From: a virus
Virus record (IMG/VR): IMGVR_UViG_3300043410_000718
Location: 1-34,519 of that record
Length of the DNA stretch: 34,519 nucleotides
Strand: one strand, 5' to 3'
Shown: positions 3,390 through 27,596 of the stretch, one piece after another
Layout of the letters: each line of letters starts with the position of its first letter
Numbering within the stretch: position 1 is the stretch's first letter
Notes under the pieces: model-generated
Databases searched by the model: none
The model's input: the letters and a program-made list of their open reading frames with translations, nothing else
Told to the model about the DNA's origin: nothing
Translations under genes and position numbers: made by a program

Positions 3390-5042
3390 TTACAAGTTAG
3401 CTAAATCTTTAACATAAATCTTACCATAGAATTCTGGTCTTACGATTTTCTTAGCGTATCTTGTCATAACACCTCTTCTTGGAGTGAAGTTATCTGGGTC
3501 ATACACTAATGGAGTCATAATCAATGGTACATACGGAGCATATACCGCACCAGTCTCAAGGAAGTTAGAACCTTTGAATCCTAATAAAATTTGATTAGAA
3601 GTCATATAAGGGTTCTTATATACTGTGTATCTGTTAGAGATAGCTCCAACTACTGATACACCAGCAGCGAATTGTAATGCATCTTTCTCAGCAGAAACAT
3701 GGAATCCTGGAATTGATTCTAAGATTGTACATACATCTGGAGAAGCTACGATGAAGTTTGCTCCACCTCTCATTGTTAATTGATGAATCTTGTTAGATAC
3801 TTTGTTCAATTTAACACCTAAAGTCTGGAACCATGTAGCTTTTTGGTATGCTAAAGATGATGAACCTGCAGTCCAAACACCTGTTGCAGCGTTATACTCT
3901 TCACCAACATTTGTTGACCAGTAATCAACTGTCAATGCGTTTACTTGTAACATATCTAAGATTTCTAAATCGATTTCTAAAGAGATGTATTCAGATAACA
4001 TTGAAGTTAATTCAGCTTCAGCATCAATTGAGTGGTAAGCATTTAAGTCTTGTGCCAACTCTGGAGTCCATACAGCCTTTAATTTTCTAGTCTTAGCAAC
4101 GATTGATTCGCTCTTTAACTCTAAATCAACTTCTGGGATGTTTAAGTTAGTACCGCTCAATTGGTTTGCACCATTTTGAATTGGAGTTTGGTCTTCGAAA
4201 TCACCTCTACTATAAGATAATGGTTGAGTGTGGAATGAAGCAGTTAATTGACCTGCGAAAGTCTTAGAACCAGTTGTGAAAGCAGTTGCAGTAGATGCAG
4301 AGAAGAACAATGTGATAGTTGAACCAGCATAGTTGTGTTGTGCTAATTCTTCAATTTGTCCCGCAGCTGGGATAACTACTGAACCAGTGTTAGATGTTAA
4401 AGAAATCAATTTGATTGATTCTAAATCTAAGTTAGTTAATTGAGAAGCAGTTAAAACTACTTTTCTTAATTGCTTAGCTTCAACTGATGCAGAGTATGCA
4501 GTGTTGAATCCAGTATCAGCGTGAGTTGCATCAGTGATTGTAGCAGAAGTGATGTTTGCACTTGAAGTTGGTGCCATAGTGTAGCCATATTGAGCTTCAC
4601 CATAAAGACCGCCTGTTGCAGCATCTGTTCTACCAAATTTAGCACCAGTACCACCATATAAAGAATCACCAGCAGTTCTACCATCTTTTGTAGAACCATA
4701 TTTGAAGTCCATGAAGAAAATCAAACCTGAAGGTAAGTTCATTGGTTGAACTGAAACGAATTCTTTAGCAGCGATTTCTCCGAAGATTCTTCTAACTAAA
4801 GGTAAAGCAACACCAGACCACTCTTCAGAACCTTGTCCGTTAGCGTTAGTTTGTGATGCTTCTGATAATAATTGTTGAGCTTGGTTCTCTAACAATACTG
4901 CCATTTGATGTTGGTCTCTTTCTTTTAAGCCTTCTAACAAACCAGTCTTAGACCACTTTGTTTTCAAACCTCTTGTTTGCTCCAACATTACAGCTTGAGG
5001 ATTTTTCGCCTCTAATAATGATTTAACATTAAAGTTTGCCAT
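3390..5042 (-). CDS. 23: Major capsid protein, gp23-like
   Basis: This 550-residue protein (T4 gp23 is 521) carries recognisable gp23 stretches: 'FGEIAAKEFVSVQPMNLPSG' (about residues 87-106), 'ANFIVASPDVCTILESIPGF' in the middle, and near the C terminus 'YAPYVPLIMTPLVYDPDNFT' with 'RYAKKIVRPEFYGKIYV'. It forms the hexameric head lattice. The N terminus is a helical, charged propeptide; 'QLLSE' ends at Glu61 and fits the Leu-x-Glu rule for gp21-type protease cleavage, close to the 65 residues removed in T4. Residues about 160-280 are Thr/Ser/Ala-rich and may be an inserted surface domain. The ATG follows an A/T-rich leader with no Shine-Dalgarno motif. A strong terminator follows the gene. 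Confidence 0.95.
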   Translation of the reverse strand: MANFNVKSLLEAKNPQAVMLEQTRGLKTKWSKTGLLEGLKERDQHQMAVLLENQAQQLLSEASQTNANGQGSEEWSGVALPLVRRIFGEIAAKEFVSVQPMNLPSGLIFFMDFKYGSTKDGRTAGDSLYGGTGAKFGRTDAATGGLYGEAQYGYTMAPTSSANITSATITDATHADTGFNTAYSASVEAKQLRKVVLTASQLTNLDLESIKLISLTSNTGSVVIPAAGQIEELAQHNYAGSTITLFFSASTATAFTTGSKTFAGQLTASFHTQPLSYSRGDFEDQTPIQNGANQLSGTNLNIPEVDLELKSESIVAKTRKLKAVWTPELAQDLNAYHSIDAEAELTSMLSEYISLEIDLEILDMLQVNALTVDYWSTNVGEEYNAATGVWTAGSSSLAYQKATWFQTLGVKLNKVSNKIHQLTMRGGANFIVASPDVCTILESIPGFHVSAEKDALQFAAGVSVVGAISNRYTVYKNPYMTSNQILLGFKGSNFLETGAVYAPYVPLIMTPLVYDPDNFTPRRGVMTRYAKKIVRPEFYGKIYVKDLANL

Positions 5043-5074: not shown

Positions 5075-6187
5075 TTACTTGATAATACCAGCTAATTTCT
5101 TAAATCTGTCTGCTGCAGAATTATCTTCAGCGATAATTTGTTTTGCAGGTGCAGTAGATGCTGCTGGTTTTGATGCGTAACTTTCAGTAAGTTTAGTTGC
5201 AGTTTTTCTAGTTGCAGTTGAACCAATTTTAAATGATTCAGCAATTGTAGTGTAAACTAATTTCACTTCTCTTACATTTTTAGTTCTGTCTAAAGTTTCA
5301 ACAACCTTAGTCTTTTGTTCGTTTGTTAAACTGTATGCTCTGAACAATTTGTTTACATACAATAATTTAGCATTTAAAAGATTTACTTCGTTGATAGTGT
5401 TCTTTAAAGATGCGATTACAGCATATGCTTCACCTAATTCAGCTTCTTTAGCTTTCAATTCTGCGTTTGCATCATCTGCATCTGCATCATCTGATTCAGC
5501 TACTGGAGCTTCTTCTTCAGGTTGGTCATCACCATATCCCATTTCTCTTAAGATTTCATCTAAATCGATTTCATCTTCACCTGCGTTATCTGCATCGTGG
5601 TCACTTGCACCACCTGCATTATCAGCATCAGGTTCGCTATGAGAATCTTCACCTTCTACTGTTGCAACCGGTGCTTCTTCAGCATCAGTTTCATCAGATT
5701 GAGCTTCTAATTCTTTAATGATTTCATCGATATCTAAATCGTCTTCATCATTTTCTTCTTCTTCATTCATTGCTGAATCAGGAGTTGCCCCTGTGATGTC
5801 GTCTCCATCTTCATCGTTGTTTTCAGTGATACCTGCTACTTTTTCAGCGTTCTCATCTTCAGAACCAACTTCTGCAGAAATTTTATCAACATCTGCTGCT
5901 GCTAATTCGTCTGATTCTGCTGCTGAATCGTTAGCTTTGGCTGCTGGCATTTTAGTACCATCACCTTTACCGATTTCAGAAGATACATCATTCTCTTGAG
6001 TTAATTCTGGAGCTTCTTCTTCCTTCTTGTCATCATCGTTTTCTAATTCTTCTTGTAATTTTCTAGAAAGCATAGATTGCAATTTCGGAGTGAATGCTTC
6101 TTCAAGAGCGATTTTTGCGTTTGCTAATGCAGTTTCTCTAACGGCTTTAGCGTCTGCAATTGCTTCTTTTAACAATTTGCTATTCAT
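5075..6187 (-). CDS. 22: Prohead core scaffolding protein, gp22-like
   Basis: This is a 370-residue, extremely acidic protein. The N-terminal helix (MNSKLLKEAIADAKAVRE, then 'EEAFTPKLQSMLSRKLQEEL') and the C-terminal tail 'AADRFKKLAGIIK' are typical of gp22 scaffolds in T4-like marine phages. Residues about 50-240 are low-complexity Asp/Glu/Ala with near-repeats: 'DDLDIDEIIKELE' (149-161) and 'DEIDLDEILREMG' (205-217), plus 'DADNAG' twice. A coiled coil covers about 240-275. The scaffold assembles inside the prohead and is then degraded by the gp21 protease. It lies 32 bases upstream of the capsid gene and has the longest leader in the window (146 bases, with two inverted repeats). Serine-rich open frames on the other strand are shadows of its Asp/Glu codons. 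Confidence 0.9.
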   Translation of the reverse strand: MNSKLLKEAIADAKAVRETALANAKIALEEAFTPKLQSMLSRKLQEELENDDDKKEEEAPELTQENDVSSEIGKGDGTKMPAAKANDSAAESDELAAADVDKISAEVGSEDENAEKVAGITENNDEDGDDITGATPDSAMNEEEENDEDDLDIDEIIKELEAQSDETDAEEAPVATVEGEDSHSEPDADNAGGASDHDADNAGEDEIDLDEILREMGYGDDQPEEEAPVAESDDADADDANAELKAKEAELGEAYAVIASLKNTINEVNLLNAKLLYVNKLFRAYSLTNEQKTKVVETLDRTKNVREVKLVYTTIAESFKIGSTATRKTATKLTESYASKPAASTAPAKQIIAEDNSAADRFKKLAGIIK

Positions 6188-6206
6188 CTTATTTTTGTGA
6201 ATTTGC

Positions 6207-6229
6207 TTAGGCTAATGAATTGTGCCTAA
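6207..6229 (-). promoter_or_regulatory. Inverted repeat close to the scaffold start codon
   Basis: TTAGGC (6207-6212) and GCCTAA (6224-6229) form a perfect 6-bp inverted repeat around an 11-base A/T-rich loop, starting 20 bases upstream of the scaffold ATG. In mRNA the hairpin would sit next to the initiation region. There is no T-tract, so it is not a terminator. It may be a translation control element or an operator; this is inference. Confidence 0.4.
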
Positions 6230-6253
6230 ATGAGATTACTTGATTATAGGGTG

Positions 6254-6274
6254 ACCTCATATAAGAGATGAGGT
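6254..6274 (-). promoter_or_regulatory. Perfect 7-bp inverted repeat in the scaffold leader
   Basis: ACCTCAT (6254-6260) and ATGAGGT (6268-6274) are exact inverted repeats with a 7-base loop. No run of T follows on the minus strand, so termination is unlikely. The 5' arm on the transcript contains ACCTCAT, complementary to Shine-Dalgarno-like AGGT, and the 3' arm contains ATGAGGT. It sits between bS21 and the scaffold, which suggests a processing site or a regulatory hairpin separating the expression of the two genes. Confidence 0.42.
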
Positions 6275-6290
6275 ATTTGAATCAATTACA

Positions 6291-6298
6291 AATAAATA
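6291..6298 (-). promoter_or_regulatory. AATAAATA element in the bS21-scaffold gap
   Basis: The plus strand reads CAAATAAATATATAAAAC, 35 bases past the bS21 stop and about 100 bases upstream of the scaffold ATG. On the coding strand it is TATATATTTATTTG. It is one of eight similar elements in the gaps. It could be the start of the scaffold-capsid transcript, followed by the two hairpins. Confidence 0.33.
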
Positions 6299-6333
6299 TA
6301 TAAAACTTTTAGAAAACTAAAGAAAAATAAAAA

Positions 6334-6549
6334 TTATTGTAAAAAATTATTTTTTCTTATAGCTTTTTCTTTTTGTAATCGCTTTTTTACTGAAGGTTTT
6401 GTGAATTCTTTTCTATCTCTTAATTCTTTAACAATACCTATTTTAAACATTTTATTTTTTAAAACCTTTAATGCTTTTTCTAAATTCTTATGAGATTCTT
6501 CTTGGGATGAACCTCTTTCAACTTTAATTTCTATGTTAGTTAATGCCAT
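6334..6549 (-). CDS. rpsU: Ribosomal protein bS21, phage-encoded
   Basis: This 71-residue basic protein has the bS21 pattern throughout: an N-terminal beta part 'NIEIKVERG', the helix 'LEKALKVLKNKMFKIGIVKE', then 'RDRKEFTKPSVKKRLQKEKA' and 'IRKN'. bS21 binds the small subunit near the 3' end of 16S rRNA, where the anti-Shine-Dalgarno lies. Phage bS21 genes are known from some aquatic phages. Here the gene sits inside the head-assembly block, its ATG overlapping the TAA of the prohead protease (TAATG), so it should be made late with structural proteins. Only a weak GAAGAG precedes the ATG. It could replace host bS21 and change which mRNAs are favoured; that effect is inference. Confidence 0.9.
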   Translation of the reverse strand: MALTNIEIKVERGSSQEESHKNLEKALKVLKNKMFKIGIVKELRDRKEFTKPSVKKRLQKEKAIRKNNFLQ

Positions 6550-7148
6550 TACGCTAACTCTTCTATTATTTCTCTAATTAAATTTTGTGATTTACACCAC
6601 TCTCCACACACATCAGTTCCGATTGATTCAGTTAAATTATGTTTTACTGATTCATTTAATGATTCCATAAATGCACCTTGAGTAGATGGATTAGATACAA
6701 AATCCCATCCAATCAATTCAAAATCTTCACCAACTTTAACTTTGTTACCACCCATAGATTCTACTGAACCCATTCCTCTTGATGATATACCTAATCTGAT
6801 TCCCGCTCTTAATAATTCTTTTAGAATGTTTCCAGATGGAGTAGGTAGTATTTCAACCACACCAACTACATCATTACCATTCCAACTACATTCTCTGATA
6901 TTATGAGATACATTCTTTAAACTAACCACTGAAGATTCAGGATGGTCTAATTCACCTAATGCTCTTTTTTCTTTGATTAATTGTTGATATTTCTCAACTT
7001 CTCTTTCTAAGATTTCTTTTGGATACACTCTACCATTTTGATTTTGTGCATCTGCTCTTTGCAATACACCCTTAACCAAAACAACTCCGTTTTCCTCTTC
7101 GTTGATTTTACCCTCAAATAAATGTGTTTCTATTAAAAGTGATTTCAT
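6549..7148 (-). CDS. 21: Prohead protease, gp21-like (phage serine protease)
   Basis: This is a 199-residue protein, similar in size to T4 gp21 (212). It has 'RVYPKEILEREVEKYQ' (40-55), 'ALGELDHPESS' (63-73) with the likely catalytic His69, and 'AGIRLGISSRGMGSV' (115-129) with the likely nucleophile Ser122 or Ser123; both are hallmarks of the gp21/HK97-type prohead protease fold. It cleaves scaffold and capsid precursors after Leu/Ile-x-Glu sites inside the prohead. A segment near the C terminus has 'CGEWCKSQNLIREIIEELA'. The upstream context is A/G-rich without a clear Shine-Dalgarno; downstream, bS21 is coupled by TAATG. Confidence 0.92.
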   Translation of the reverse strand: MKSLLIETHLFEGKINEEENGVVLVKGVLQRADAQNQNGRVYPKEILEREVEKYQQLIKEKRALGELDHPESSVVSLKNVSHNIRECSWNGNDVVGVVEILPTPSGNILKELLRAGIRLGISSRGMGSVESMGGNKVKVGEDFELIGWDFVSNPSTQGAFMESLNESVKHNLTESIGTDVCGEWCKSQNLIREIIEELA

Positions 7149-9383: not shown

Positions 9384-9391
9384 TATAAATA
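9384..9391 (-). promoter_or_regulatory. TATAAATA element downstream of the portal gene
   Basis: The plus strand reads CACTATAAATATAATATAAC, inside the 78-base gap 9340-9417. On the coding strand it is TATATTTATAG, 44 bases upstream of the next ATG. Like the copy at 2238 it carries the extra C (CTATAAATA) of the T4-type late promoter but points away from the genes. Confidence 0.35.
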
Positions 9392-9417
9392 TAATATAAC
9401 TTTAGATTACGGAAATT

Positions 9418-11325
9418 TTAGATATCCGTTAGTATGTTTTTATCATCTAATAGTGATCCTGTATCCTCATTTTTAATAGATTCTACATTTTCTTTTAATA
9501 CTTGCTTACCTTTTTTCTTAGCACTTGCTGATTGAATCTTCTTTCTAATAGCATCTCTTAACATTTTTTCAGAATCAGAAATATGTTGTAATTTACCCAT
9601 AATTCTTTCTTTTCTAGTTTCTCTGCCAAAATTTCTACTTACATCTGCTTTACCTAATGGGTCTCTACCAAATGCATTTTCATCAGTTCCATTATCACCT
9701 GTCATTTGAGGTCTTCCACCTTTCTTACCATTTTCAGCACTTGTATCTTCTTTATCTTTAACTACCGGTTCACCATCTGCTTTTGGTTCTTCAGGTTGGT
9801 CCGGTGTTTGTGGTTGTTCTTGACCCATTGCAGGTTGTTCTGGTTTGTTTTCCTCATCATACGGGTCAACACCTTCCATTTCAATCTTAGTTAATCTATT
9901 CAAATCAAATGTATCCAATACTACATCTTCTCTTTGTTTAGATATTTCCTCTTCGGTTAATTTGAAAATGTTATGATAAATCCATTCATTAGATAACATC
10001 TTCAATGATTTCATATCAGTAGCCAGCCTAACTTTTTCAGCCCATAAATTGATTTTCTCTTGCTCATAGATTGTAGATGGGTTTGTTAATTCCAATTTGA
10101 AATCAATTGCATCCATTCCTTCAAATCCGTTAGCCATTAAGTGAGCAATTGCCACCTGTGTTAATTCAGATACTACAACTCTTTGGATTCTTTCAATTGT
10201 TCTTGCAAAACGAATATCTTCTGCTGCTAAAGTTGCTTTACCACTAATATCTTCTTCGAATCCTAAAAACGCTTTAGGAACTTTTAATGCCGCAAATAAT
10301 TTAGCTTTTAAGTAATCGATATCTTCGATTGCAGTATATTGTAATCCGCTTAAGGTATCAATTTGAGTTCCACTATCACCACCTCTAACTGGCATAAAGA
10401 AGTCTTCAGTGATATTCATCATATTGTATTTAAGATTGTAATCCCCAGTCTTTTGATCTTGGAATGGAGTTTTCTTAATCTTATTTATGATTTTTTGCAT
10501 ATAGTTATCCACTTCTTGAGGAGGGATGTTACCTATATCAATTTTGAATATTCTTTTTTCAGGTGCTCTCATAATTCTATGAATCATCATCGCATCTTCC
10601 ATCAAAGTAATTTGTTTCCACAATCTTCTACCATTCTCAATCATCGCCTTACCATAAGGTAGATAGTTGGTATCAGAATATAAACGGAAGTGAGCCATCT
10701 CAAAGTTATCATATTCCTTCTTACCTAAATAATCTGGATCAACAGTAAATTTGATACCGGTCTCATGTCTATTAACCCTTGATGGGTCATGTGGAGATTC
10801 GGTTCTTTGCGTATGATAAACTGATTGAGGGAATACATTTACAACACCCTCACCTTCTACAATTTCCAATACTAAAAATTGGTCACCATATTTAGTTAAG
10901 TTTCTTATCCACGGCCATAGATTGAATTCAACATTCATTATATCGTAGAATAAGTTATGTAATGCTTCTTTTACATCATGATTTGAAGTTTTAATTGTTA
11001 ATACATCTCCAAATTCATTTTTGGTAGTACATTCATCCGCATAGATATCTAATGCCGATGCTATGATTGGGTCTTGATCCATCGCATCATAATCCAAAAA
11101 CAACTCCCTTCTGATTGTTTGATATGAAAGTTGTGTTTGTAATGCGTTATATTGATAACCAGATTGTAATTTGTAAAATCTATCCTTTAATGTTTTAAGG
11201 TTAGATTGCCCCTGGCTTTGTTCAGTATCAACGACCTTCGTTTTTCCATTTTCAGTCTTTACAATCACATTGGTTGCAAAGAGTTTTCTCATTCTTTCGA
11301 AAAACGAATTATTATTTTCTGCCAT
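9418..11325 (-). CDS. 20: Portal vertex protein, gp20-like
   Basis: This is a 635-residue protein; T4 gp20 has 524, and the extra length is a Pro/Glu/Gln-rich, disordered C-terminal tail (about 490-635). Portal hallmarks are 'YDAMDQDPIIASALDIYADE' near residue 75, 'DTLSGLQYTAIEDIDYLKAK' near 325, and 'ALKVPKAFLGFEEDISGKAT' near 346. The dodecameric portal starts head assembly, binds terminase during packaging and later carries the neck. It overlaps the cupin gene by 14 bases, and its leader is A/T-rich without a Shine-Dalgarno. gp18 and gp19 (sheath and tube), which lie between 17 and 20 in T4, are replaced here by two small accessory genes. Confidence 0.94.
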   Translation of the reverse strand: MAENNNSFFERMRKLFATNVIVKTENGKTKVVDTEQSQGQSNLKTLKDRFYKLQSGYQYNALQTQLSYQTIRRELFLDYDAMDQDPIIASALDIYADECTTKNEFGDVLTIKTSNHDVKEALHNLFYDIMNVEFNLWPWIRNLTKYGDQFLVLEIVEGEGVVNVFPQSVYHTQRTESPHDPSRVNRHETGIKFTVDPDYLGKKEYDNFEMAHFRLYSDTNYLPYGKAMIENGRRLWKQITLMEDAMMIHRIMRAPEKRIFKIDIGNIPPQEVDNYMQKIINKIKKTPFQDQKTGDYNLKYNMMNITEDFFMPVRGGDSGTQIDTLSGLQYTAIEDIDYLKAKLFAALKVPKAFLGFEEDISGKATLAAEDIRFARTIERIQRVVVSELTQVAIAHLMANGFEGMDAIDFKLELTNPSTIYEQEKINLWAEKVRLATDMKSLKMLSNEWIYHNIFKLTEEEISKQREDVVLDTFDLNRLTKIEMEGVDPYDEENKPEQPAMGQEQPQTPDQPEEPKADGEPVVKDKEDTSAENGKKGGRPQMTGDNGTDENAFGRDPLGKADVSRNFGRETRKERIMGKLQHISDSEKMLRDAIRKKIQSASAKKKGKQVLKENVESIKNEDTGSLLDDKNILTDI

Positions 11326-12203: not shown

Positions 12204-13787
12204 TTAGATTAACCATCTTATATCTTCATTTCCATCACCAATATTCATTTCATATGGATTTGCTCTCATTCTTTCATTAGAAGAACCCATTGAAAATCCA
12301 GTTGATGATATGGAATTGATTGCCACTTTAGCCATATCCATTCTTTCTTGTCTCAAACGAAGTGCGGTATCTCTTACCCATAACCCAATTGAAAATGACA
12401 TTACTAAGTCATCATTATATCCTCTCATAGCTTCTGCTCTATTTGTAAGCCATATGAAAGTAAACAACTCATCAATTAATCTTAAGGACTGAACCACAAC
12501 CTCTTTACCTCTGAAATATTCATCCAATTTGGATATAATCAAAGGTCGAGTTTTAGCTGAAGTAGTGAAACCAGCAACCTGCCTTCTTTCTTCTGCATTA
12601 AATTTATTTGTATATTGTTTCTCAATATCAATGTATTTGTAATCTTGAGTTTGGTAATAAAGATTTTGATAATTTCTATCAATAACTTGTTGGATTACCG
12701 CCCATCCAATATTCGCATTTTCTATTACTAAAAGTGCGTTATTCCATTCTGTTCCTACTGCAACCAAAAAATTTCCATAATCTTTGGTTTCCATCTTACC
12801 TCTATATTCCGCAACCTGCACATTATTTTCTATATCAAAGACATGGAAAGCCGAATAGTCACCTCCATCTCCCCTCGCCACGTCGGCTGCTACCATATAA
12901 GATTTATTGTAATCGGGGTATTCCCATTTCCAATAGTTTCCATCAAATCCCGTTTTCTCAATTGGCTCTTTAACAAAAGTTTCTTTATACCACATTAATA
13001 ATTCAGGTGGAATGACAGTATCACCGGAAGAAATAAAGTCACAATCACATTCCTGTGCTGCCAACTTCTCTCCTAATACTCTCGTTTGTGCATCTCTCCA
13101 ACTTTGGTCTCTTTCTGGGTGAACTGTCCAGTGAAGATAAATTGGATTGAATTCATTCGTTCCTTCTTCTGCACCTACCCATTGCTGATGAAACCAGTTA
13201 CCCACACCATTAGGTGTAGAAAGTGCAATACAACTACCACCCGTTGATAGGGCAGGTGTTGCAGATGCCCAAATCTCCACAATATCCGGTACGAATGCCG
13301 CCTCATCCACTACTAATAGAGATAGGGCTTCAGAACGACCTGCATCTGGAGAAGATGGAATGGCCTTTACTTGTGAACCATTTACTAATCTTAATGATAA
13401 TTTGTTATCTTCTTGAGTTGCTACCTTTAACCACGCTGGAAGGTTATCATACATAACCCTCACTTTCGTTACTAAGTTCTTAGCAACCTCTTGCTTAATC
13501 GCAATAACCAACACGTTGTAGTCTTGGTTGAATATCATTTTCCATAGGGAGAACCCCGCTGTCAATGTTGATATACCCGTTTGACGGGATTTCAAAACTA
13601 TATTAAATCTATGTTCCTTAAATTGAATTAAAGTTTTTTCCTGATATGGAAATAATTCAAATCTTAATTTTCCCTTTGTAGGGTGTTGTATCTTACAATA
13701 CTTTCTCATGAAATATACCGGATCACTGGCACATTTCTTATATTCTTCTTTGATTACATCTTTTAATGTTAATCCTTTATCTTGCAT
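12204..13787 (-). CDS. 17: Terminase large subunit, gp17-like
   Basis: The frame opens at 13790 with TTG; the adjacent ATG at 13787 (MQDKGLTLKDVIKEE) is the likely start, giving 527 residues (T4 gp17 has 610). ATPase motifs are Walker A 'SRQTGIST' (67-74) and Walker B 'LLVVDEAA' (158-165 region, Asp161-Glu162), with the coupling stretch 'ALSTPNGVGN' (188-197). The nuclease domain starts with 'AADVARGDGGDYSAF' (300-314), where Asp302 is a likely metal ligand, and 'LLVIENANIGW' carries the next acidic residue. It translocates DNA through the portal and cuts concatemers. It overlaps the upstream Cys-motif gene by 11 bases. Confidence 0.95.
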   Translation of the reverse strand: MQDKGLTLKDVIKEEYKKCASDPVYFMRKYCKIQHPTKGKLRFELFPYQEKTLIQFKEHRFNIVLKSRQTGISTLTAGFSLWKMIFNQDYNVLVIAIKQEVAKNLVTKVRVMYDNLPAWLKVATQEDNKLSLRLVNGSQVKAIPSSPDAGRSEALSLLVVDEAAFVPDIVEIWASATPALSTGGSCIALSTPNGVGNWFHQQWVGAEEGTNEFNPIYLHWTVHPERDQSWRDAQTRVLGEKLAAQECDCDFISSGDTVIPPELLMWYKETFVKEPIEKTGFDGNYWKWEYPDYNKSYMVAADVARGDGGDYSAFHVFDIENNVQVAEYRGKMETKDYGNFLVAVGTEWNNALLVIENANIGWAVIQQVIDRNYQNLYYQTQDYKYIDIEKQYTNKFNAEERRQVAGFTTSAKTRPLIISKLDEYFRGKEVVVQSLRLIDELFTFIWLTNRAEAMRGYNDDLVMSFSIGLWVRDTALRLRQERMDMAKVAINSISSTGFSMGSSNERMRANPYEMNIGDGNEDIRWLI

Positions 13788-14454
13788 CAAAAATTCTATT
13801 TATGATAGGGTTGTTAAGTTCTCTCAATTTTGCTTCATACAAAACAATATCTTCTTCTAACTCTAACAAACCATTATCTATATTAGCTATCTCCGCTTCC
13901 ATATCCGCTTTCATTTCATCCATCGGTTTTGGTAAATGCCAGATTTCAATTCTACCATCTTCCAACACTTGCTCATAATGTGGTTTCAATTCTCTGATAC
14001 CATCTTCTATTTGAGCTTTAGCTTCGGTTGCATGAGCAATAGCTCTTCTGAATAACCTAAAATTTTTATATTCTTCAAAGACACCTAATTTAGTAGCTTC
14101 TTTATCCATTTCTATATTACAATCTATACAATATCCAGATTGTTGAATAAGAAGTTTATCATTTGGCCCATATTTTTGCTTTGTGCAATCTAAGTTTGAA
14201 CACCTTTCCTTTTCCCTTAAATATTCTCTGATTGCCTGATAAGCCTCGTGGTTCTTTCCGGTTTTTAATACGAATCCTTCTTTTTGTTCGTATTGATGTG
14301 TTTCATCTTCCCACTTTTCACCTACCTCTCGTTTGATATGTGGATTTGATTTTTCATATCCAAACGCTCTATTTGGGTCTTCTCCCTTAAACACAAAATC
14401 CACCAATTCACGGCGGGTTTTATGCATTAAATTTTTCTTAAATTCTTTTGCCAT
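13777..14454 (-). CDS. Uncharacterised protein with four-Cys zinc-ribbon-like motif; possible terminase partner
   Basis: This is a 225-residue protein. Cys85, Cys90, Cys109 and Cys112 (CSNLDC ... GYCIDC) are spaced like a zinc ribbon. The C-terminal third is helical and acidic ('MKADMEAEIANIDNGLLELE', then 'DIVLYEAKLRELNN'), probably a coiled coil. It is directly upstream of gp17 and overlaps it, where T4 has gp16, the small terminase; gp16 also oligomerises by a coiled coil, but I do not recognise a gp16 sequence or a zinc ribbon in that family. It may be a divergent small terminase or another DNA-binding partner. The start ATG follows a 40-base A/T-rich gap. Confidence 0.55.
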   Translation of the reverse strand: MAKEFKKNLMHKTRRELVDFVFKGEDPNRAFGYEKSNPHIKREVGEKWEDETHQYEQKEGFVLKTGKNHEAYQAIREYLREKERCSNLDCTKQKYGPNDKLLIQQSGYCIDCNIEMDKEATKLGVFEEYKNFRLFRRAIAHATEAKAQIEDGIRELKPHYEQVLEDGRIEIWHLPKPMDEMKADMEAEIANIDNGLLELEEDIVLYEAKLRELNNPIINRIFDAR

Positions 14455-19804: not shown

Positions 19805-20629
19805 TTAAAACTTCTCGTAATTTTCATTTATATATGAATATAAATCGTTTGCAAAGTTTTGGTGGCAGAAGTATCCTGGGTGTAAATCCATATATTGCAT
19901 ATCCGTTTCCTCTGCCAAAGTTCCCTTTGTTTGGATAGCATATTCATGAAAATCATTGATTATTTGATTACCAACCTTAATTGATAACATATTTGTTTTT
20001 TTAATATCACTATCAATTGAGCCCCCAAATTCACCATCAAAGAATATGAATTTTATTTTGTGATATCGTAAATAGGTAAATAGAGTGTTTAACTCTCTGC
20101 TTATCTTTTTATATTCATCCTTCTTATCAAAGAAAAACTTATAGTATTGTTTTAACCCAAATGCTAATATTTCATTATCCTTTAAATAAGATTCTTGATA
20201 ATACTTACGAATTCCATACATAAAATTGGTAGAATTATCACTATAATCCTGAGTGTTGAATTGCATATTAAATATGAAATAATCTTGCAATAAATTTGAC
20301 CATAAATCTAATCTACCCAATGAAGGAGCTTCTAATATTAAAAAAAGTTTATCTCTTCTATTCCAATTCTTTTTAACAAAATCATATGCCATTCTAACAA
20401 CTCTTCCACTACCCCCGCCACTATATGCTTCATTTACACACTCTATTCCATACAAATCCGCCAATCTTTTAGAATAAGTTATATCACTTTGATTATCCCA
20501 CCAAACATCATATTTTGATTTATAGAAATCTCTTGCATTTCCACCCTCTTCTTTTATACGATGAGTTTCCATACCTCCTCCTGCTGAATGAGAACATCCA
20601 TTACAATATATCACGTCTATATTCGTCAT
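19805..20629 (-). CDS. SGNH-hydrolase-like protein (third copy in the operon)
   Basis: This is a 274-residue protein. Block I is 'YCNGCSHSAGGGM' (8-20), with Ser13 as the likely nucleophile in a G-C-S version of GDS; block II is 'YSGGGSGRVVR'; and near the C terminus 'MDLHPGYFCHQNFAN' supplies the Asp-x-x-His/DLH catalytic pair. SGNH enzymes remove or move acetyl and other acyl groups on sugars and other molecules. There is no signal peptide, so it would act in the cytoplasm. It overlaps the upstream glycosyltransferase-like gene by 29 bases and is the last gene of the coupled operon. It is the most divergent of three SGNH-like genes here. Confidence 0.65.
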   Translation of the reverse strand: MTNIDVIYCNGCSHSAGGGMETHRIKEEGGNARDFYKSKYDVWWDNQSDITYSKRLADLYGIECVNEAYSGGGSGRVVRMAYDFVKKNWNRRDKLFLILEAPSLGRLDLWSNLLQDYFIFNMQFNTQDYSDNSTNFMYGIRKYYQESYLKDNEILAFGLKQYYKFFFDKKDEYKKISRELNTLFTYLRYHKIKFIFFDGEFGGSIDSDIKKTNMLSIKVGNQIINDFHEYAIQTKGTLAEETDMQYMDLHPGYFCHQNFANDLYSYINENYEKF

Positions 20630-21965
20630 TTGGAATTCCTTCGTTTATTAATCTTTTACAAAAAATAGTTTCGTATTTCTCATAATCAAATGTAAGTAAT
20701 TTTATCTGATTATATATCAATCTATCTTCTATTTCTTTTAATTGCTCTTTTAGTTCTTCAATTGGTATATTACAAATTCTTTTAATTTCATCTATAATCA
20801 TTTCCAATCTCTTCATATCATCAAATTCGGTATCATAACTTTCATCAATGAATCCATCAAATGTTTTAAATCCCATTTCTCTAACTGCTTTTAGATAATT
20901 AGGTGGCCCTGCAATTAAGAAGGGTTGAAAATACATAATAGGTTTGAATATCTTTTCCGAAATAAATCCTTGTTTCTTAAAGAAGATAGTATCACTGATT
21001 AAACTTATTACACTTTTTCTATATGGTTCTAAGTTTTCAAACCCATATCCACTTATTCTCAAATCGGTTTCAAAATCTACTCTTTGTTCTGGTAGAGATA
21101 AGAAATGTGTATAATCATCCCAAAATCCTAAATCTCTTAATTGATTCTCATAATCATATCTTGCTCCTCCTAATGATTCATAAAATTTAGGATTGAATGA
21201 TATTAGAAATTTGGATTCTATTTTGGATTTGTATATTTCGGATATTAACTTTACTCTATGATGATGGATATATTGATTAAACGCTAGAAAGTGAAATTCC
21301 TTTTTAGAATAATCCAATACATCGGATACTTCGTTGTTTTTTAAATTATGTTGAAAATATCTACTACTTCTATTCAAATAAAAATTGAATGGTAGGAATA
21401 ATATATTCTTTGTAGATAGATGTGAAAAATCATTTAGATAATCATTATACATAAAGATTACCTTTTTGTAAATAAGTTTCTTTAAAATTTGCTTTACAAA
21501 GAATTCAGTTAAATGTCCCTCTTGTGAATAGTTTATTATTATAGTAGCATTTATCTTATTTAATTTTGTAAGTGTATCCGGATGAATTCCTTTAAAACTA
21601 TCTGCAAAGAAATTGATGTGCCCAAATGGTTCAATTACAAAAAAGAACTTCTCCGTTTTATATTCATCTATATTTTCAACAACATCATCTAACACAAATG
21701 GTCTAACTCCAACATTGTATCTATTGTTAAAGTTATTAAGTGATAGGGTTTCAAATCCTAATCCATTTCCATAAACGGAAATTTGATTACCAAATGTGCT
21801 AAACAGATGTTTCATCAGATATCCTACATCCGATGAATCATTTTCTATCATCCAATTTTTACTTTCCTCAAATACTTCGGTTGGTTGGCAATTGGGTAGA
21901 AACGCTTTTTTAATTTTATGTTCGTAAACTAAATTAAGATACATAGTATAATTCGGGGTATTCAA
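20601..21965 (-). CDS. Glycosyltransferase-like protein, copy 3
   Basis: This is a 454-residue protein from the ATG at 21965; an internal ATG at 21944 (MYLNLVYEHK) would reduce the overlap with the TPP gene from 32 to 11 bases and is an alternative start. Two landmarks are shared with the genes at 26403 and 28403: 'FLAFNQYIHHHRVKL' (226-240), and 'SDTIFFKKQGFISEKIFKP' (324-342) followed by a 'GFKTFDGFIDESYD' stretch. The Glu-Lys-x-Phe-Lys block resembles the donor-binding motif near the C terminus of GT-B enzymes such as family 10 fucosyltransferases (TEK). The role would be to add a sugar; donor and acceptor are unknown. Confidence 0.58.
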   Translation of the reverse strand: MNTPNYTMYLNLVYEHKIKKAFLPNCQPTEVFEESKNWMIENDSSDVGYLMKHLFSTFGNQISVYGNGLGFETLSLNNFNNRYNVGVRPFVLDDVVENIDEYKTEKFFFVIEPFGHINFFADSFKGIHPDTLTKLNKINATIIINYSQEGHLTEFFVKQILKKLIYKKVIFMYNDYLNDFSHLSTKNILFLPFNFYLNRSSRYFQHNLKNNEVSDVLDYSKKEFHFLAFNQYIHHHRVKLISEIYKSKIESKFLISFNPKFYESLGGARYDYENQLRDLGFWDDYTHFLSLPEQRVDFETDLRISGYGFENLEPYRKSVISLISDTIFFKKQGFISEKIFKPIMYFQPFLIAGPPNYLKAVREMGFKTFDGFIDESYDTEFDDMKRLEMIIDEIKRICNIPIEELKEQLKEIEDRLIYNQIKLLTFDYEKYETIFCKRLINEGIPNDEYRRDIL

Positions 21966-22476
21966 CTAAACAATGAACTCCTTTATTATCCATTGCATAT
22001 TTGTAAGCCAATTCAATATCAGAAGGAGTTTTCAAATCATGAAACTCTATATTCTTACACATAGATTTAAATTCTTCAAAATAGTTTCCTTTGTGTTGGT
22101 GACCAGGATCCAATGGTTTATCAGAACCTTTACCCAATCTAATCAAAACATGAGGTTTAACACCTGTCATTAATTCATACTTATCTAAATGGTTTATCAT
22201 TTGGTTTGCCGCTGATATAATGAAATCCCAACGAGGGTAGAATGTAACAACTAACTTATTCGTCATTGCTAATCCTAAACTCATTCCCATTTGTGTTTCT
22301 TCCATAACTGGAACTTCAATCATTTTATTCACATCAACTTCGTCTAATGTGGTACTCATAGGATTACCTCTATAAACTATTTGTTGCCCAATGAATATAC
22401 TATTATCTTTTCTATTTATTTCTCCCATTGCTTTCGTAAGAGCATCTTTATATGGGGTGTATTCGGGTTGACTCAT
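21934..22476 (-). CDS. TPP-enzyme pyrimidine (PYR) domain, E1-beta/transketolase-like, stand-alone
   Basis: The ATG at 22476 overlaps the TAA of the upstream gene (TAATG), and the protein then starts MSQPEYTPYKDAL; the longer frame begins with TTG and has no family match. The 180 residues match the N-terminal PYR domain of pyruvate-dehydrogenase-type E1 beta: 'MIEVPVMEETQMGMSLGLAM' (52-71) holds Glu59/Glu60, one of which would activate thiamine diphosphate, and 'YPRWDFIISAANQMINHLDK' (80-99) follows. The usual C-terminal beta domain (about 130 residues) is absent. The partner TPP-binding domain is encoded 7 kb upstream in the same operon (29650-30279). Together they could form a minimal thiamine enzyme; the reaction is unknown. 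Confidence 0.72.
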   Translation of the reverse strand: MSQPEYTPYKDALTKAMGEINRKDNSIFIGQQIVYRGNPMSTTLDEVDVNKMIEVPVMEETQMGMSLGLAMTNKLVVTFYPRWDFIISAANQMINHLDKYELMTGVKPHVLIRLGKGSDKPLDPGHQHKGNYFEEFKSMCKNIEFHDLKTPSDIELAYKYAMDNKGVHCLVEYPELYYVS

Positions 22477-23378
22477 TATATAAATTTTACTAATTCTTCG
22501 TTTACAAATTTTTTGTTTATGATTGATGATGGATGACCATACCAATCAAATCTACCATCTAAGTTTTCGCTAAATAAAACCTTCTTCAATCTATCATATC
22601 CTTCAACTTCTTTTTGCTTTCGGATTGCATATTCATATAACCCTCCTTTCTTCAAACCTTCCTCTTCATAAAACCAAAACTTATTAAAAGGTATTTTATC
22701 TAAATAAATTGAAAAGTATTCAGAGTTTTTGAAAAAATAATCCAATGAATCATTCTGATATATTACACCATTATATACATCAGTTGTATGGAATTCGGGT
22801 TCATAGAATATATCTTTAATAGTAAGGTATGTATAATCTATCCCTTCTTTATCTAAATAATTTGAAAGGTCTATTATTGTTTCAACTACTGAATATGAAT
22901 GTTCTTTACTTAATTTTTGATGTAATGTTTTAAGTATAGAATCAATACCAATGAATTTAGAATTATTGGTTTCATAATACCCCCCAGTTAAATACCAAAA
23001 CTCCTTCTTATATTCTGAAGGAGTTGGTAAGTAATTAGTTGTATGAGAACCTATTTCTAAATCACCAATATAATCTTTAATTAAGAACGAATCTCTATAT
23101 GGTTGTGTCCATTGTGCAAATACCTTATGAATAGTTCCACCATTTTTCTTAATGTATTCTACCCAATATGTAATCGTGCGTTTAATGGTGTTATTATCGT
23201 TTGTAGGGTTTCCTAAATTTAAGACGATATATTCATCCCCTAACATAATTTGCAACCATTCTGGCCACTGCAAACCCTCTACATTGTAAAGGTCTTTTTG
23301 CATATGATTTAATGGTCTTAAATTCGTAAAAGAACAGCCACTACAAATGATATATTTTTTATTTGTTGAGATAAACAC
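22476..23378 (-). CDS. SGNH-hydrolase-like protein (copy 2, paired with SDR)
   Basis: This is a 300-residue protein that must start at GTG (23378) because no ATG precedes the first motif. Block I is 'IICSGCSFTNLRP' (10-22) with likely nucleophile Ser16; 'LNLGNPTNDN' is a block II/III equivalent with conserved Gly and Asn; 'WYGHPSSIINKKF' near the C terminus carries the catalytic His. It is clearly related to the gene at 24312-25202 ('IICSGCSFTN', 'NVGSPTND', 'GHPSTKTWKKF'). It overlaps the SDR gene upstream by exactly 20 bases, as its relative does, which points to duplication of a two-gene unit. Esterase or acyltransferase activity on a sugar is likely but unproven. Confidence 0.62.
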   Translation of the reverse strand: MFISTNKKYIICSGCSFTNLRPLNHMQKDLYNVEGLQWPEWLQIMLGDEYIVLNLGNPTNDNNTIKRTITYWVEYIKKNGGTIHKVFAQWTQPYRDSFLIKDYIGDLEIGSHTTNYLPTPSEYKKEFWYLTGGYYETNNSKFIGIDSILKTLHQKLSKEHSYSVVETIIDLSNYLDKEGIDYTYLTIKDIFYEPEFHTTDVYNGVIYQNDSLDYFFKNSEYFSIYLDKIPFNKFWFYEEEGLKKGGLYEYAIRKQKEVEGYDRLKKVLFSENLDGRFDWYGHPSSIINKKFVNEELVKFI

Positions 23379-24315
23379 TCTTATACCAATTTAATGTTTT
23401 TTCTAATCCTTCATAGATTGTAGTCTTAGCAGTCCATCCCAATTTATCATACACTTTGAATGAATCAATCAAACGAGTAGGAATCATTGGTGCTTTATTA
23501 TTTACATATTCAATAGGAGAATCTAATCCTTCAATTTCTTTTAATACATCAATTACATGATTAACTGAATATCCACAATTAGAACCTACATTATAGATTT
23601 CATGATTCTCTTCTTTCTCCATAATAATTTGAAGAGCTTCTACAAAATCTTCAACATATAAAAGGTCTCTGATTTCAGTTCCATCCCCCCAAACCGGAAT
23701 TGGGTTCAAACGAGTTGCAACTTTAATAACCGATGCAGGTGTTACATGACATTTATCTAAATCATATTTATCATGCGGCCCATATAAATTAGCAGGTCTA
23801 ACAATTACCGTCTGCATTGGATTGATTAGGATTTCAGAATACATCTTACAAAGAACTTCCGCATATCTCTTCATCCAACCTACTGGGTAATATGTTTTAT
23901 AGATTGATTCGTAAATGTTATCCGTTTCCAATACTGCTCTTTCACCACTCTCCGGATAAATTGTAGAAGATGATAAGAATATAAATTTCTTAATATTATT
24001 CTTATACGCTTTTTCCAATGTTAAAGCATTGATGATTACATTTGGAGTAACATGAAGAAGGGGAGCATAAATTGTATCAACTGCATTAGAGGTTGAAGCT
24101 GCACAATGGAAAACCACATCAACTCCTTCCATAATAGTATTAACAAAATTCTCATCTCTTAAATCACCCTGAACGGATTCTCCGAATCCTTCTAACTTTC
24201 GGTTAAATCCATGATTACGAAGGTTAGTATATCCTTCTTTATACAATCGTTCCGCTAAATTTCTACCTACAAAACCGGTAGCACCTAATATTAGGATTTT
24301 GCTTTCTTTATTCAT
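23359..24315 (-). CDS. NAD-dependent epimerase/dehydratase (extended SDR), tyrosine-less active site
   Basis: This is a 318-residue extended SDR. The nucleotide-binding motif is 'ILGATGFVGRNL' (9-20), the Ser of the catalytic triad is in 'FIFLSSSTIYPE', and 'VWGDGTEIRDLLYVEDF' is typical of nucleotide-sugar enzymes such as GDP-fucose synthase. Where YxxxK is expected, the sequence is 'YYPVGWMKRYAE' (142-153): Lys149 is present, but residue 145 is Val. The copy at 25183 shows the same change. It overlaps neighbours by 4 and 20 bases. It probably converts a nucleotide-linked sugar (epimerisation, reduction or dehydration), perhaps with Tyr142 or Tyr143 taking part; alternatively catalysis is altered. 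Confidence 0.8.
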   Translation of the reverse strand: MNKESKILILGATGFVGRNLAERLYKEGYTNLRNHGFNRKLEGFGESVQGDLRDENFVNTIMEGVDVVFHCAASTSNAVDTIYAPLLHVTPNVIINALTLEKAYKNNIKKFIFLSSSTIYPESGERAVLETDNIYESIYKTYYPVGWMKRYAEVLCKMYSEILINPMQTVIVRPANLYGPHDKYDLDKCHVTPASVIKVATRLNPIPVWGDGTEIRDLLYVEDFVEALQIIMEKEENHEIYNVGSNCGYSVNHVIDVLKEIEGLDSPIEYVNNKAPMIPTRLIDSFKVYDKLGWTAKTTIYEGLEKTLNWYKSVYLNK

Positions 24316-25202
24316 ATAACTTCTTTAATTAAAATATCATCAACAAATTTTTTCCAAGTTTTAGTAGAAGGATGACCGGCAACCATCATATTACCTTCCA
24401 ACCATCTATCGGTTTCTATGTTATCATATATCCATTCATATACCCCACCATATTCACCATATTCATTTTTATAGAACCAGCAATATTTCTCCCAATCAAT
24501 TCTTTTATAGAAATTACTGATATACTCATTATGATAAAATCTCTTTTTATTACCCCTTTGTATGAATTTTTTATTATTATACAATTCTTGCAATTTAGGT
24601 TCTACTTCATCATATCTAAGAGGTTCTTCTAATACCTCATTATTCTCTATCTGTCCATCAAATATTGTTTCCTCCAAAGATAACATATCCTTTATGAAAA
24701 ATGTTTTTAATTTGATACCTTTACTTTCCGCAAAACAAATTAAATAATAAAACCATTCTAAAAATGAAAGAGTATCCTCCTCATCACTTTTAACCCATTT
24801 TACTTTAGCATTGAAATATTCTTTTTCTTTTTCAAAATCTTCCGATTCTTTCATCCAATCAAAAAAGAAATTACCACTTAGAGCATAAAACCCATTCATA
24901 TATTCGGTATAGGTGTAATCGGTTTTATGGATTACTGAATTTGGAGTTTGAGGAATGTATATGGAATCTCTATTCAAAAATGTCCAACATGCCATTAAAG
25001 TAATATCCGTAATACCATTATCCAATAATTCGTTTGCCTTATATATTAAACTTCTTACAGTCGTTTTAATATCATTTGTAGGAGACCCAACATTATATAC
25101 ATTATGATACTCTCCTAAATGTTCAGGCCAAAACACACTCTTTTTATTTGGAGTGGCATGAAAATTGGTAAATGAACAACCACTACAAATTATGTGCGAC
25201 AT
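24312..25202 (-). CDS. SGNH-hydrolase-like protein (copy 1, paired with SDR)
   Basis: This is a 296-residue protein starting MSHIICSGCSFTN; Ser10 in G-C-S is the likely nucleophile. 'VYNVGSPTNDIK' supplies the Gly and Asn of blocks II/III, and 'MVAGHPSTKTWKKF' near residue 276 supplies the His. The length and the three blocks match the gene at 22476-23378. It overlaps the SDR gene upstream by 20 bases and the next SDR gene downstream by 4 bases. There is no signal peptide. By analogy with SGNH enzymes in polysaccharide clusters it may add or remove acyl groups on the sugar made by the neighbouring SDR; this is inference from context. Confidence 0.62.
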   Translation of the reverse strand: MSHIICSGCSFTNFHATPNKKSVFWPEHLGEYHNVYNVGSPTNDIKTTVRSLIYKANELLDNGITDITLMACWTFLNRDSIYIPQTPNSVIHKTDYTYTEYMNGFYALSGNFFFDWMKESEDFEKEKEYFNAKVKWVKSDEEDTLSFLEWFYYLICFAESKGIKLKTFFIKDMLSLEETIFDGQIENNEVLEEPLRYDEVEPKLQELYNNKKFIQRGNKKRFYHNEYISNFYKRIDWEKYCWFYKNEYGEYGGVYEWIYDNIETDRWLEGNMMVAGHPSTKTWKKFVDDILIKEVI

Positions 25203-26118
25203 AGTATTCGTATGTTTTTTCTAATGCTTTTTCAAATCCCAATTTAGGTAATAACCCTATTTGTTCTTGTTTAGTAGTATCCATTTGTCTTCTCAAATCA
25301 CCATTTGGTTTAGTTGTATTCCATCTGATAGTTAAATCTTTACCACTGATTTTAATAAGAGATTCTATCATTGATTTAATTGTGATTTCTTCTCCGGCTC
25401 CAAAATTAATTGTAGTATGAATGTTTCCTTTGTATAATTGTATTATAGCATCTGCCACATCACCCGCATATACAAAATCTCTAATCGGAGAACCATCACC
25501 CCATGCTTCAATTGAATCACCTTTCTCTTCAACAATTTTTTTAATAGTAGAAGCAATTACTGTCCCTTTTCCACTAAAATCATCATACTCACCGAATATG
25601 TTTGCTGGTCTGATGATAGCCCAATTGTGATAATTATATTGAACTCTATATGCTTCTAATAAGATTTCTCCCATTCTTTTAGACCAAGATGGAAACCAAT
25701 CGGCTTCCGATGGTAATGTTTTCCAAACACTATCCTCTTCAAATTTTTCTGCCGGTGCATATACTCCAACTGAAGATACGAATATCAACCAAATGTTACT
25801 CTTTGCACATTGATTGATAATCTCGGTATTAATTTTAAATGATGGATAAAGGAAATCAACTGGCTTTTCTTTTGCTCTGATAGGAGAACCTTTTATACCA
25901 AAACAATTAAACACCGCATCAAATTTATTTTTATTGAAAAGTGTTTCTACTGCAAATGGTTGTGTTAAATCCTCTTGTATAAATTCCCAACCGGTAGATG
26001 GTAGTTGTTTTCCTTTTTTCAAATCAACACCAACCACTTTATATCCTTCATTTAAGCATTTCTTTAATAGATGCGTTCCCACTAATCCATTAACTCCTGT
26101 AATTAAAACTTTTTTCAT
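25183..26118 (-). CDS. NAD-dependent epimerase/dehydratase (extended SDR), tyrosine-less active site
   Basis: This is a 311-residue extended SDR. The binding loop is 'LITGVNGLVGTHL' (5-17), the Ser region is 'LIFVSSVGVYAP' (111-122), and the nucleotide-sugar motif is 'AWGDGSPIRDFVYAGDV'. The catalytic stretch reads 'WFPSWSKRMGE' (141-151): Lys147 is kept, but residue 143, where Tyr belongs in YxxxK, is Pro. The second copy at 23359 has an equally unusual 'VGWMKR'. The C terminus matches GDP-fucose-synthase-like proteins. It overlaps the exported protein gene upstream by 4 bases and the SGNH gene downstream by 20. It probably works on a nucleotide sugar; the exact step is unknown. Confidence 0.8.
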   Translation of the reverse strand: MKKVLITGVNGLVGTHLLKKCLNEGYKVVGVDLKKGKQLPSTGWEFIQEDLTQPFAVETLFNKNKFDAVFNCFGIKGSPIRAKEKPVDFLYPSFKINTEIINQCAKSNIWLIFVSSVGVYAPAEKFEEDSVWKTLPSEADWFPSWSKRMGEILLEAYRVQYNYHNWAIIRPANIFGEYDDFSGKGTVIASTIKKIVEEKGDSIEAWGDGSPIRDFVYAGDVADAIIQLYKGNIHTTINFGAGEEITIKSMIESLIKISGKDLTIRWNTTKPNGDLRRQMDTTKQEQIGLLPKLGFEKALEKTYEYYVAHNL

Positions 26119-26399
26119 TTTACTTCTATAAATTCTGAATGTTTATATAATTGTTTTGATTCGTAATCATCCTTCCAATTTTGAATAATTTCTTCCGCTG
26201 CTTCCTTTCTTTGAAATGCAAATGCCCCAGAATGCCAAACTTTGAAAGGTAAATAAAAATAGTTTGTTTTAAACCACACACGCTTTTGTGGTAAATAATA
26301 TCTTGTTCCATGTTCTACCCAAGTTTCAATACGATACTTTGGCTTTGCTTCTAATGTTATCGCTCCCAATAACATTAACAATATTAATAGTTTTTTCAT
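26115..26399 (-). CDS. Small exported protein (signal peptide), unknown function
   Basis: This 94-residue protein has an N-terminal signal peptide: two Lys, then a hydrophobic run (LLILLMLLGAITL) and a likely cut after 'LEA' near residue 18. The mature part is about 76 residues, rich in Tyr, Lys and Trp, with 'QRKEAAEEIIQNW'. There is no Cys, so no lipobox. It is the only clearly exported product in the 17-gene operon. It might act on the host envelope, for example in superinfection exclusion or as an accessory of surface modification; nothing in the sequence decides this. It starts 3 bases after the previous gene and overlaps the next by 4. Confidence 0.6.
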   Translation of the reverse strand: MKKLLILLMLLGAITLEAKPKYRIETWVEHGTRYYLPQKRVWFKTNYFYLPFKVWHSGAFAFQRKEAAEEIIQNWKDDYESKQLYKHSEFIEVK

Positions 26400-26402
26400 T
26401 TC

Positions 26403-27596
26403 TTATTTTCTTTGTAAATCTCTAATAGTATCATCAATCATTGTAGAAAAAGAATAGGTGAAAAAATGTTCTCTATTTCTTTCTATTTTATCTATATTAT
26501 TTTTATACCATTCTATTATTCCTTCTTTTCCCATTGAATATATTCTTCTAACTTGCACCAATGCTTCATTTAATCTTTTATGATTATCCTCAATTGAATC
26601 AAATGAATAATCTATAATATCATCATATTGCTCAAACCCCAATCCTTTGATATAAGCATTTGAACGAATATCTCCTATAACTAAAAATGGATGTGAATTA
26701 GCTAATGCTTTAAAACTTTTTTCGGTTAGATTCAAACTATTATTATCAAATGATGTTTCGGTAATAATGTTAAAACAAGTATCAGCATAATGTGATTTAG
26801 TAGTGTATTTCAAATTAGAGAATACATCATTTTTAAAATTAGGATAATCCCAATCTAATACATTAAATCCCATTCTATCAAATCTATTGTAAAATGCAAT
26901 CAAATCATATAATTCCGTTTCAGTTGATTTTAGGTCATGTCTATTAAAGTTCTCATCCTTAATCAATACTGATATATAACTATCATCTATCATTCCGGTT
27001 TTCATTAACCACAATAATAATTGAATTCTAAATATTTTAGTTGTATTCTTATTGTAACTTAAAAAGAATTTCTTCTTTTCTGAATTTAGATATTCAGTTG
27101 GTGTAAGTAAGCCGATTTCAGTTCCATTATGTTCAATACATTCATTTTTCAAATCTCTATAATGATCTACCAAAAATCCAAATAGATATGGTTTATGAAT
27201 AATCTTAATACCATGTCTATCAAATAATTCCGATTGTTTATTATTTGTAACTACAACTATTTGTTTATCAGCTAAGTTATATTGTTGTTTTAACTTACTA
27301 AGTTTTGCAATAAAATGAAATTGGTTTGCTCCTTCGTGAAAATTAGAAAACACTAATTTTACATTAGGTTTATCTTTAACTTTTTCAAAAACACTTTCAA
27401 AGTATTCTTTATTATTATCAATTATCCAATGTTGCATTTCACCTTGTATAGAAAAATTCCACACAATATCATCTTCATTGTTTAATTCAAAAATAGGATG
27501 TTCAAATCCATATGCCCAATCTAAATTAGAAATTCCACAAAACCCATTACCATTTGATATGGTTTCATATTCGGGGTTCTCATAATAAAATTTCAT
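26403..27596 (-). CDS. Glycosyltransferase-like protein, copy 2
   Basis: This is a 397-residue protein of the same type as those at 20601 and 28403. The shared core: 'FFLSYNKNTTKIFRIQLL' (177-194), then 'IITETSFDNNSLNLTEKSF' (277-295) and 'GLGFEQYDDIIDYSFD'. The Thr-Glu-Lys-Ser-Phe-Lys block resembles the sugar-donor site of GT-B enzymes such as family 10. The N-terminal half diverges between copies, as expected if acceptors differ. It overlaps the sulfotransferase-like gene upstream by 17 bases. The three copies suggest that several sugars or linkages are made. Sequence similarity between copies is clear by eye; the enzymatic role is inferred. Confidence 0.58.
   Translation of the reverse strand: MKFYYENPEYETISNGNGFCGISNLDWAYGFEHPIFELNNEDDIVWNFSIQGEMQHWIIDNNKEYFESVFEKVKDKPNVKLVFSNFHEGANQFHFIAKLSKLKQQYNLADKQIVVVTNNKQSELFDRHGIKIIHKPYLFGFLVDHYRDLKNECIEHNGTEIGLLTPTEYLNSEKKKFFLSYNKNTTKIFRIQLLLWLMKTGMIDDSYISVLIKDENFNRHDLKSTETELYDLIAFYNRFDRMGFNVLDWDYPNFKNDVFSNLKYTTKSHYADTCFNIITETSFDNNSLNLTEKSFKALANSHPFLVIGDIRSNAYIKGLGFEQYDDIIDYSFDSIEDNHKRLNEALVQVRRIYSMGKEGIIEWYKNNIDKIERNREHFFTYSFSTMIDDTIRDLQRK

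Follow-up and report, generated by a model that had tools for sequence, protein, structure and literature searches.

The 34.5-kb virus fragment analysed here (IMG/VR record IMGVR_UViG_3300043410_000718, positions 1 to 34,519; this whole 34,519-nt stretch is called the window) carries in its T4-like head operon a ribosomal protein bS21 in which the tyrosine that clamps the 3' tail of 16S rRNA is replaced by arginine, and sister phages with the same substitution appear to use Shine-Dalgarno (SD) motifs on late genes and not on early genes. Judged from sequences, the new findings are that a bS21 lineage encoded on the same strand as the head genes has lost the clamp residue and that its Arg54 relatives have late-only SDs; our literature search found no report of clamp-residue loss in such phage bS21, nor of late-only SDs in Arg54 relatives. 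With slightly less than even confidence, we favor the reading that a clamp-less phage bS21 loosens anti-SD sequestration late in infection, which sister phages would exploit with SDs and the window clade would have without SDs. More tentative is the fuller statement that in some T4-like Bacteroidota phages the clamp-less bS21 turns SD-blind host ribosomes into SD-reading ones late, so that late genes have SDs and early genes do not, the window clade pairing this altered protein with a genome poor in SDs.

Phage bS21 is a known kind of gene, and its presence in the window is confirmed: the 71-aa product, at 49.3 bits, exceeds the curated PF01165 cut-off of 27 bits (Table 1), in agreement with a sequence-only reading of the window that had described a full bS21 gene between gp21 and gp22, coupled by TAATG. 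The gene lies on the same strand as the head genes; 146 nt separate its 3' end from a gp22-like ORF, after which comes gp23, so that the T4-like order gp17, gp20, gp21, (gp22), gp23 is present; gp22 is assigned by position and conserved relatives, as its ORF had no Pfam or PHROG match, and the others by Pfam. The best solved relatives of the protein are the bS21 chains of 9i5v and 7jil, the latter from the Flavobacterium johnsoniae ribosome, and window-type bS21 has an insert of 7-8 residues near the N terminus. An AF2 model (pLDDT 85) places Arg65 within the last helix (52-70); a Foldseek search with this model returned no bS21 match, which is uninformative for a short protein of few helices. 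In Flavobacterium phage immuto, the slot held elsewhere by bS21 is occupied by ORF201 (L162, 10331-10558), a 75-aa ORF coupled to the protease, which we considered as a hidden bS21 and rejected for lack of a profile match. Elsewhere in the window, positions 19805-34517 (-) hold a long overlapping run of genes whose translations, on reading, resemble sugar epimerases, a radical SAM protein, and transferases.

Table 1. Features of the window around the bS21 gene
Feature	Positions	Strand	Evidence
gp23 major capsid protein, no SD	3390..5042	-	PF07068, E 2e-79
gp22-like scaffold candidate, no SD	5075..6187	-	Position between gp21 and gp23; conserved relatives in the same place
Intergenic region between bS21 and gp22 with conserved three-helix RNA, leader of the gp22-like gene	6188..6333	-	Covariation; z -3.5
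Late-promoter-like TATATTTAT, upstream of the gp22-like gene	6292..6300	-	Motif scan
Phage bS21 gene, 71 aa	6334..6549	-	PF01165, 49.3 bits, E 4e-13; phrog_21469 ribosomal protein S21
Codon AGA, Arg65, column of F. johnsoniae bS21 Tyr54	6355..6357	-	phmmer to 7jil, multiple alignment, profile column
gp21 prohead protease (Peptidase_S77)	6549..7148	-	PF03420, E 6e-28; stop overlaps bS21 start as TAATG
Late-promoter-like TATATTTAT, upstream of the unit ending with gp21 and bS21	9385..9393	-	Motif scan
gp20 portal protein	9418..11325	-	PF07230, E 7e-70
Terminase large subunit (TerL, gp17)	12204..13790	-	PF03237 and phrog_2; 56% identical to Flavobacterium phage immuto

A motif scan found the late-promoter-like TATATTTAT at three coding-strand sites in the window (15358-15350, 9393-9385, and 6300-6292), all intergenic, and the late-type motif is enriched on the coding strand in relatives. 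From these sites, bS21 is probably the last gene of a unit that starts near 9390, with gp22-gp23 started separately, and the latter two sites thus support the earlier placement of bS21 among the late genes of the head operon. The three-helix RNA downstream of bS21 comprises 19 pairs, with 99.7% of cells paired and double changes at 7 pairs, and its covariation exceeds all 500 shuffles and all slid controls; its z is -3.5, and an Rfam search with this leader gave no match. We rejected it as a bS21-specific element because a related leader also precedes gp22 in phages without bS21 nearby.

The anti-SD clamp includes bS18 and bS6 as well as bS21, the component covered by our analysis. Tyr54 of bS21 is reported to stack on A1534, redirecting the 3' tail of 16S rRNA; with Y54A, ribosomes stay active on SD-less mRNA and their protein output from SD mRNA is about 3-fold higher, and the Fmax of SD-less initiation is 0.34 for delta-C ribosomes, largely without bS21, versus 0.98, with Y54A nearly normal at 0.95 (McNutt 2023, PMC9976891). 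The phmmer alignment of the window bS21 to 7jil is ungapped and pairs residues 20-64 with chain residues 9-53, placing Arg65 at Tyr54, and position 54 is Arg, Lys, or His throughout the window clade. Among bS21 genes that share the head-gene strand and immediately precede gp22 or follow gp21 (type A; 65 loci, some of them the same contig twice, with 43 distinct proteins), the residue is Arg in 33, Lys in 3, His in 2, and Tyr in 5 (Arg/Lys 36/43), and among those encoded opposite the head genes, as in Chen 2022 (type B; 57 loci, 38 distinct proteins), it is Tyr in 37 and His in one. In cellular Bacteroidota bS21, which were selected by similarity and include many from gut species, Tyr is found in 64/64 distinct sequences; a wider sample from the phylum of G001 includes sequences with Tyr, two with His, and a group of Arg type whose core differs. 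Close relatives with proteases 79-83% identical (L186-L188, and L243 as well) have a Tyr54 bS21 in the same slot, so clamp-bearing and clamp-less forms alternate at this locus and have been exchanged or have changed among closely related phages. In the window clade, a Phe or Tyr lies four positions beyond residue 54; we considered it as a replacement for the clamp but did not adopt the idea, since G209, with Trp there, still has late SDs.

A role for phage bS21 in translation has been proposed for phages generally (Mizuno 2019, PMC6375957) and for Bacteroidetes phages (Chen 2022, PMC9723584) and was discussed by McNutt 2023 (PMC9976891), so the general idea of the sequence-only reading, that a late bS21 biases translation, stands as already published; its mechanism, in which the window protein helps to hide the anti-SD, is disfavored by sequence, the key Tyr54 being Arg here. 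In that model, shared with Chen 2022, the phage protein keeps the anti-SD hidden and so favors SD-less phage mRNAs over host mRNAs, as would befit the SD-poor genome, the late position, and the finding of Chen 2022 (PMC9723584) that every phage bS21 in their analysis has an aromatic residue at position 54. However, the aromatic residue is lost in the window bS21, and Bacteroidia host mRNAs are also SD-less, so hiding the anti-SD would give phage mRNAs no obvious advantage; we consider this model improbable for the window.

The scarcity of SDs itself is borne out. With start codons assigned by rule, an SD core (AGGA/GGAG/GAGG) occurs in 6% of 35 window leaders versus 13% and 15% in two control-position sets, and the mean anti-SD pairing energy is -1.98 versus about -3.1 in controls; for comparison, the SD core is found at 4% in immuto (controls 21-24%) and 61% in T4. 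The 164-kb contig G204 of the window clade is SD-free throughout (4-5% versus 10-14% in controls), and none of five head genes in the clade has an SD. A few weak SD-like leaders exist in the window (starts at 8492, 20629, 29665, and 32560), and we therefore call it SD-poor rather than SD-free without exception. The genome is thus SD-poor, as first read, with no strong SDs elsewhere as far as the window and G204 go; the description of its mRNAs as leaderless-like is unsupported, as they have leaders. The bS21 leader, GAGAAATAATAGAAGAGTTAGCGTA, pairs at -3.2 and is no autoregulatory strong SD (threshold below -13 kcal/mol in McNutt 2023). G204 also encodes a tmRNA and a tRNA-Ser(TGA) (L439, 19188-19556 (-), and L442, 19900-19985 (-)).

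The sister phages differ in their SD use. Locally, SD use is 4% in type B loci, 13% in Tyr54 type A loci (6-12% in L186-L188), and 54-100% in most loci of the large Arg54 group, with the window clade near background, and on longer contigs of the large Arg54 group the SDs are regional. Without recourse to homology, we then assigned genes to classes by the promoter found within 220 nt, either Bacteroidota-type TTG-N17-22-TANNTTTG (the sigma-ABfr consensus being TAnnTTTG at -7 and TTTG near -33; PMC7366714) or late-type TATAYTTAT. In six Arg54 contigs (G202, G203, G206, G208, G209, and G220; L428-L434, L443-L467, L525-L527, and L565-L570), SDs are carried by 0/49 genes below Bacteroidota-type promoters and 43/91 genes below late-type promoters; in the first four contigs analysed, the counts were 0/47 versus 28/66 (Fisher p 1.6e-8). 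Genes typed by homology agree (SDs in 1/18 replication versus 24/36 structural genes), with early genes scorable by homology or promoter in few contigs. Below late-type promoters, SDs are found at 1/15 in Tyr54 G207, 0/11 in G210 (type B, Tyr54), 0/10 in immuto, 0/7 in G204 of the window clade, and 3/14 in G213, where no bS21 was found in 126 kb. In eight Arg54 phages, bS21 lacks an SD while the adjoining gp22 and gp23 have SDs. In another subclade, at L249, L255, L268, L280, L281, L282, L287, and L296, a conserved GGAGA (mostly AAGGAGA) abuts the bS21 ATG, a spacing too short for an ordinary SD, and self-control is possible. G206 and G209, the largest two of the group's records that lack a head-region bS21, both encode an Arg54 bS21 elsewhere, far away from the head genes; most contigs are fragments, so failing to find bS21 in one is not informative.

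An early/late contrast alone is no proof, and we rejected it as such, because cyanophage S-SM2 shows a milder version of it (SDs on 8/24 late versus 2/20 early genes). Across phages, few independent events underlie the association of Arg54 with SDs: the Arg54 state changes about 5 times on the gp23 tree, and a phylogenetic test of Arg54 against SDs on gp23 found no significant link among 4-5 independent pairs, which are too few. Exceptions are L305 (Arg54 without SDs) and L314 and L247 (Tyr54 with SDs on gp23), and the window clade, with Arg, Lys, or His at position 54 and no SDs, also breaks the association. The contrast between promoter classes within genomes is the stronger evidence.

Mechanistically, we infer that bS21 would be made late, as the last cistron of the head-assembly transcript and by coupling to gp21, and that, in a Bacteroidota-type host, its product would join the host bS21 or take its place on the 30S platform. 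With the bS21 core kept, initiation on SD-less mRNA should still be supported, and with Arg in place of Tyr54 the 16S 3' tail should be held less tightly than by host bS21, so that sequestration would be loosened and not strengthened. Sister clades with the same substitution would exploit the freed anti-SD through SDs on late genes and not on early ones; the window clade has the altered protein and no SDs, and would most likely benefit from having bS21 available for SD-less initiation as host synthesis fails. Because Arg, too, can stack on adenine, the weakening of the clamp may be slight. A simpler explanation, which we find possible though rather unlikely, is that the phage merely tops up a loosely bound bS21 for late SD-less initiation, with residue 54 unimportant and Arg a product of drift or a neutral variant. 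It fits the poor start on SD-less mRNA of ribosomes largely without bS21 and the nearly normal start of Y54A ribosomes (PMC9976891), and also the window clade, where SDs are unused, but drift predicts otherwise than Arg/Lys at one column in 36 distinct sequences with an aromatic residue kept in cellular Bacteroidales and Chen-type phages, and the late-only SDs of the Arg54 sister phages argue against it as well.

The window bS21 falls in a supported phage clade, and its core has a mean identity of 53% to Bacteroidales, 39% to Pelagibacter phage HTVC008M, and 35% to the Arg54-type group from the phylum of G001; in the comparison suggested by the sequence-only reading, it is thus nearer Bacteroidales than Pelagibacter phage. 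Bacteroidota-type promoters number 6 in G204 versus 0.5 expected (1/100 shuffles reached 5), and they exceed shuffles in G203 (5 versus 0.2), G206 (23 versus 0.6), G209 (12 versus 1.2), and type B G210 (4 versus 0.4), with no excess in T4 or S-SM2. G202 has only 1-2, and G208 and immuto have none; as immuto is a true Flavobacterium phage, absence of these promoters is not informative. The G204 promoters and the core identity make a Bacteroidota-type host probable for the window phage. Alternatively, the host could belong to an SD-poor lineage with an Arg54 bS21 of its own, so that nothing is reprogrammed: Arg54-type bS21 are common in the sample from the phylum of G001, and Chlorobia lack Tyr54 and are mostly SD-less (McNutt 2023, PMC9976891). 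We give this little credence, as the window core is nearer Bacteroidales than the Arg54 types, seven Arg54-type cellular genomes (40 kb each) have no excess of the Bacteroidota-type promoters that G204 has, and TerL comparison gives a Flavobacterium phage (immuto) as the nearest isolate.

Compared with known systems, the Chen 2022 phages (PMC9723584) share with the window a bS21 inside the conserved terminase-portal-protease-capsid region and are likewise SD-poor, T4-like, and of probable Bacteroidota hosts, but their bS21 is on the opposite strand, has an aromatic residue at position 54, and was measured to be expressed late, whereas that of the window shares the head-gene strand, is coupled to gp21, has Arg54 and the N-terminal insert, and is late by inference. 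The F. johnsoniae bS21 (7jil; PMC9976891), of the same family and among the best-matching solved structures, has Tyr in the same helix and column where the window has Arg, and a strong SD precedes rpsU in many Flavobacteriales, unlike the window gene. The bS21 of HTVC008M, also phage-encoded, enters E. coli ribosomes (Mizuno 2019, PMC6375957); it is 39% identical to that of the window, lies outside the head operon, and belongs to another host group. Microcystis phage Mel-JY01 has an RpsU (WWT39311.1) on the same strand between the prohead protease and scaffold/capsid, also non-aromatic at position 54, but its sequence is divergent, one extra gene separates protease and bS21, and SDs occur on all gene classes. 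Its genome (PP395634.1, L480-L489) has 21 Bacteroidota-type promoter motifs versus 0.8 expected, with SDs below them, and its recorded Microcystis host may be worth re-examining.

These results bear on the question of why bS21 is so common in phages. In this phage lineage, the residue altered is one whose mutation is already known to turn F. johnsoniae ribosomes towards SD mRNAs, and with the clamp tyrosine lost, as the alignments indicate, infected ribosomes may follow different start rules. If true, this would be a specialized ribosome made by a virus, with a rule for start sites that can be read from sequence.
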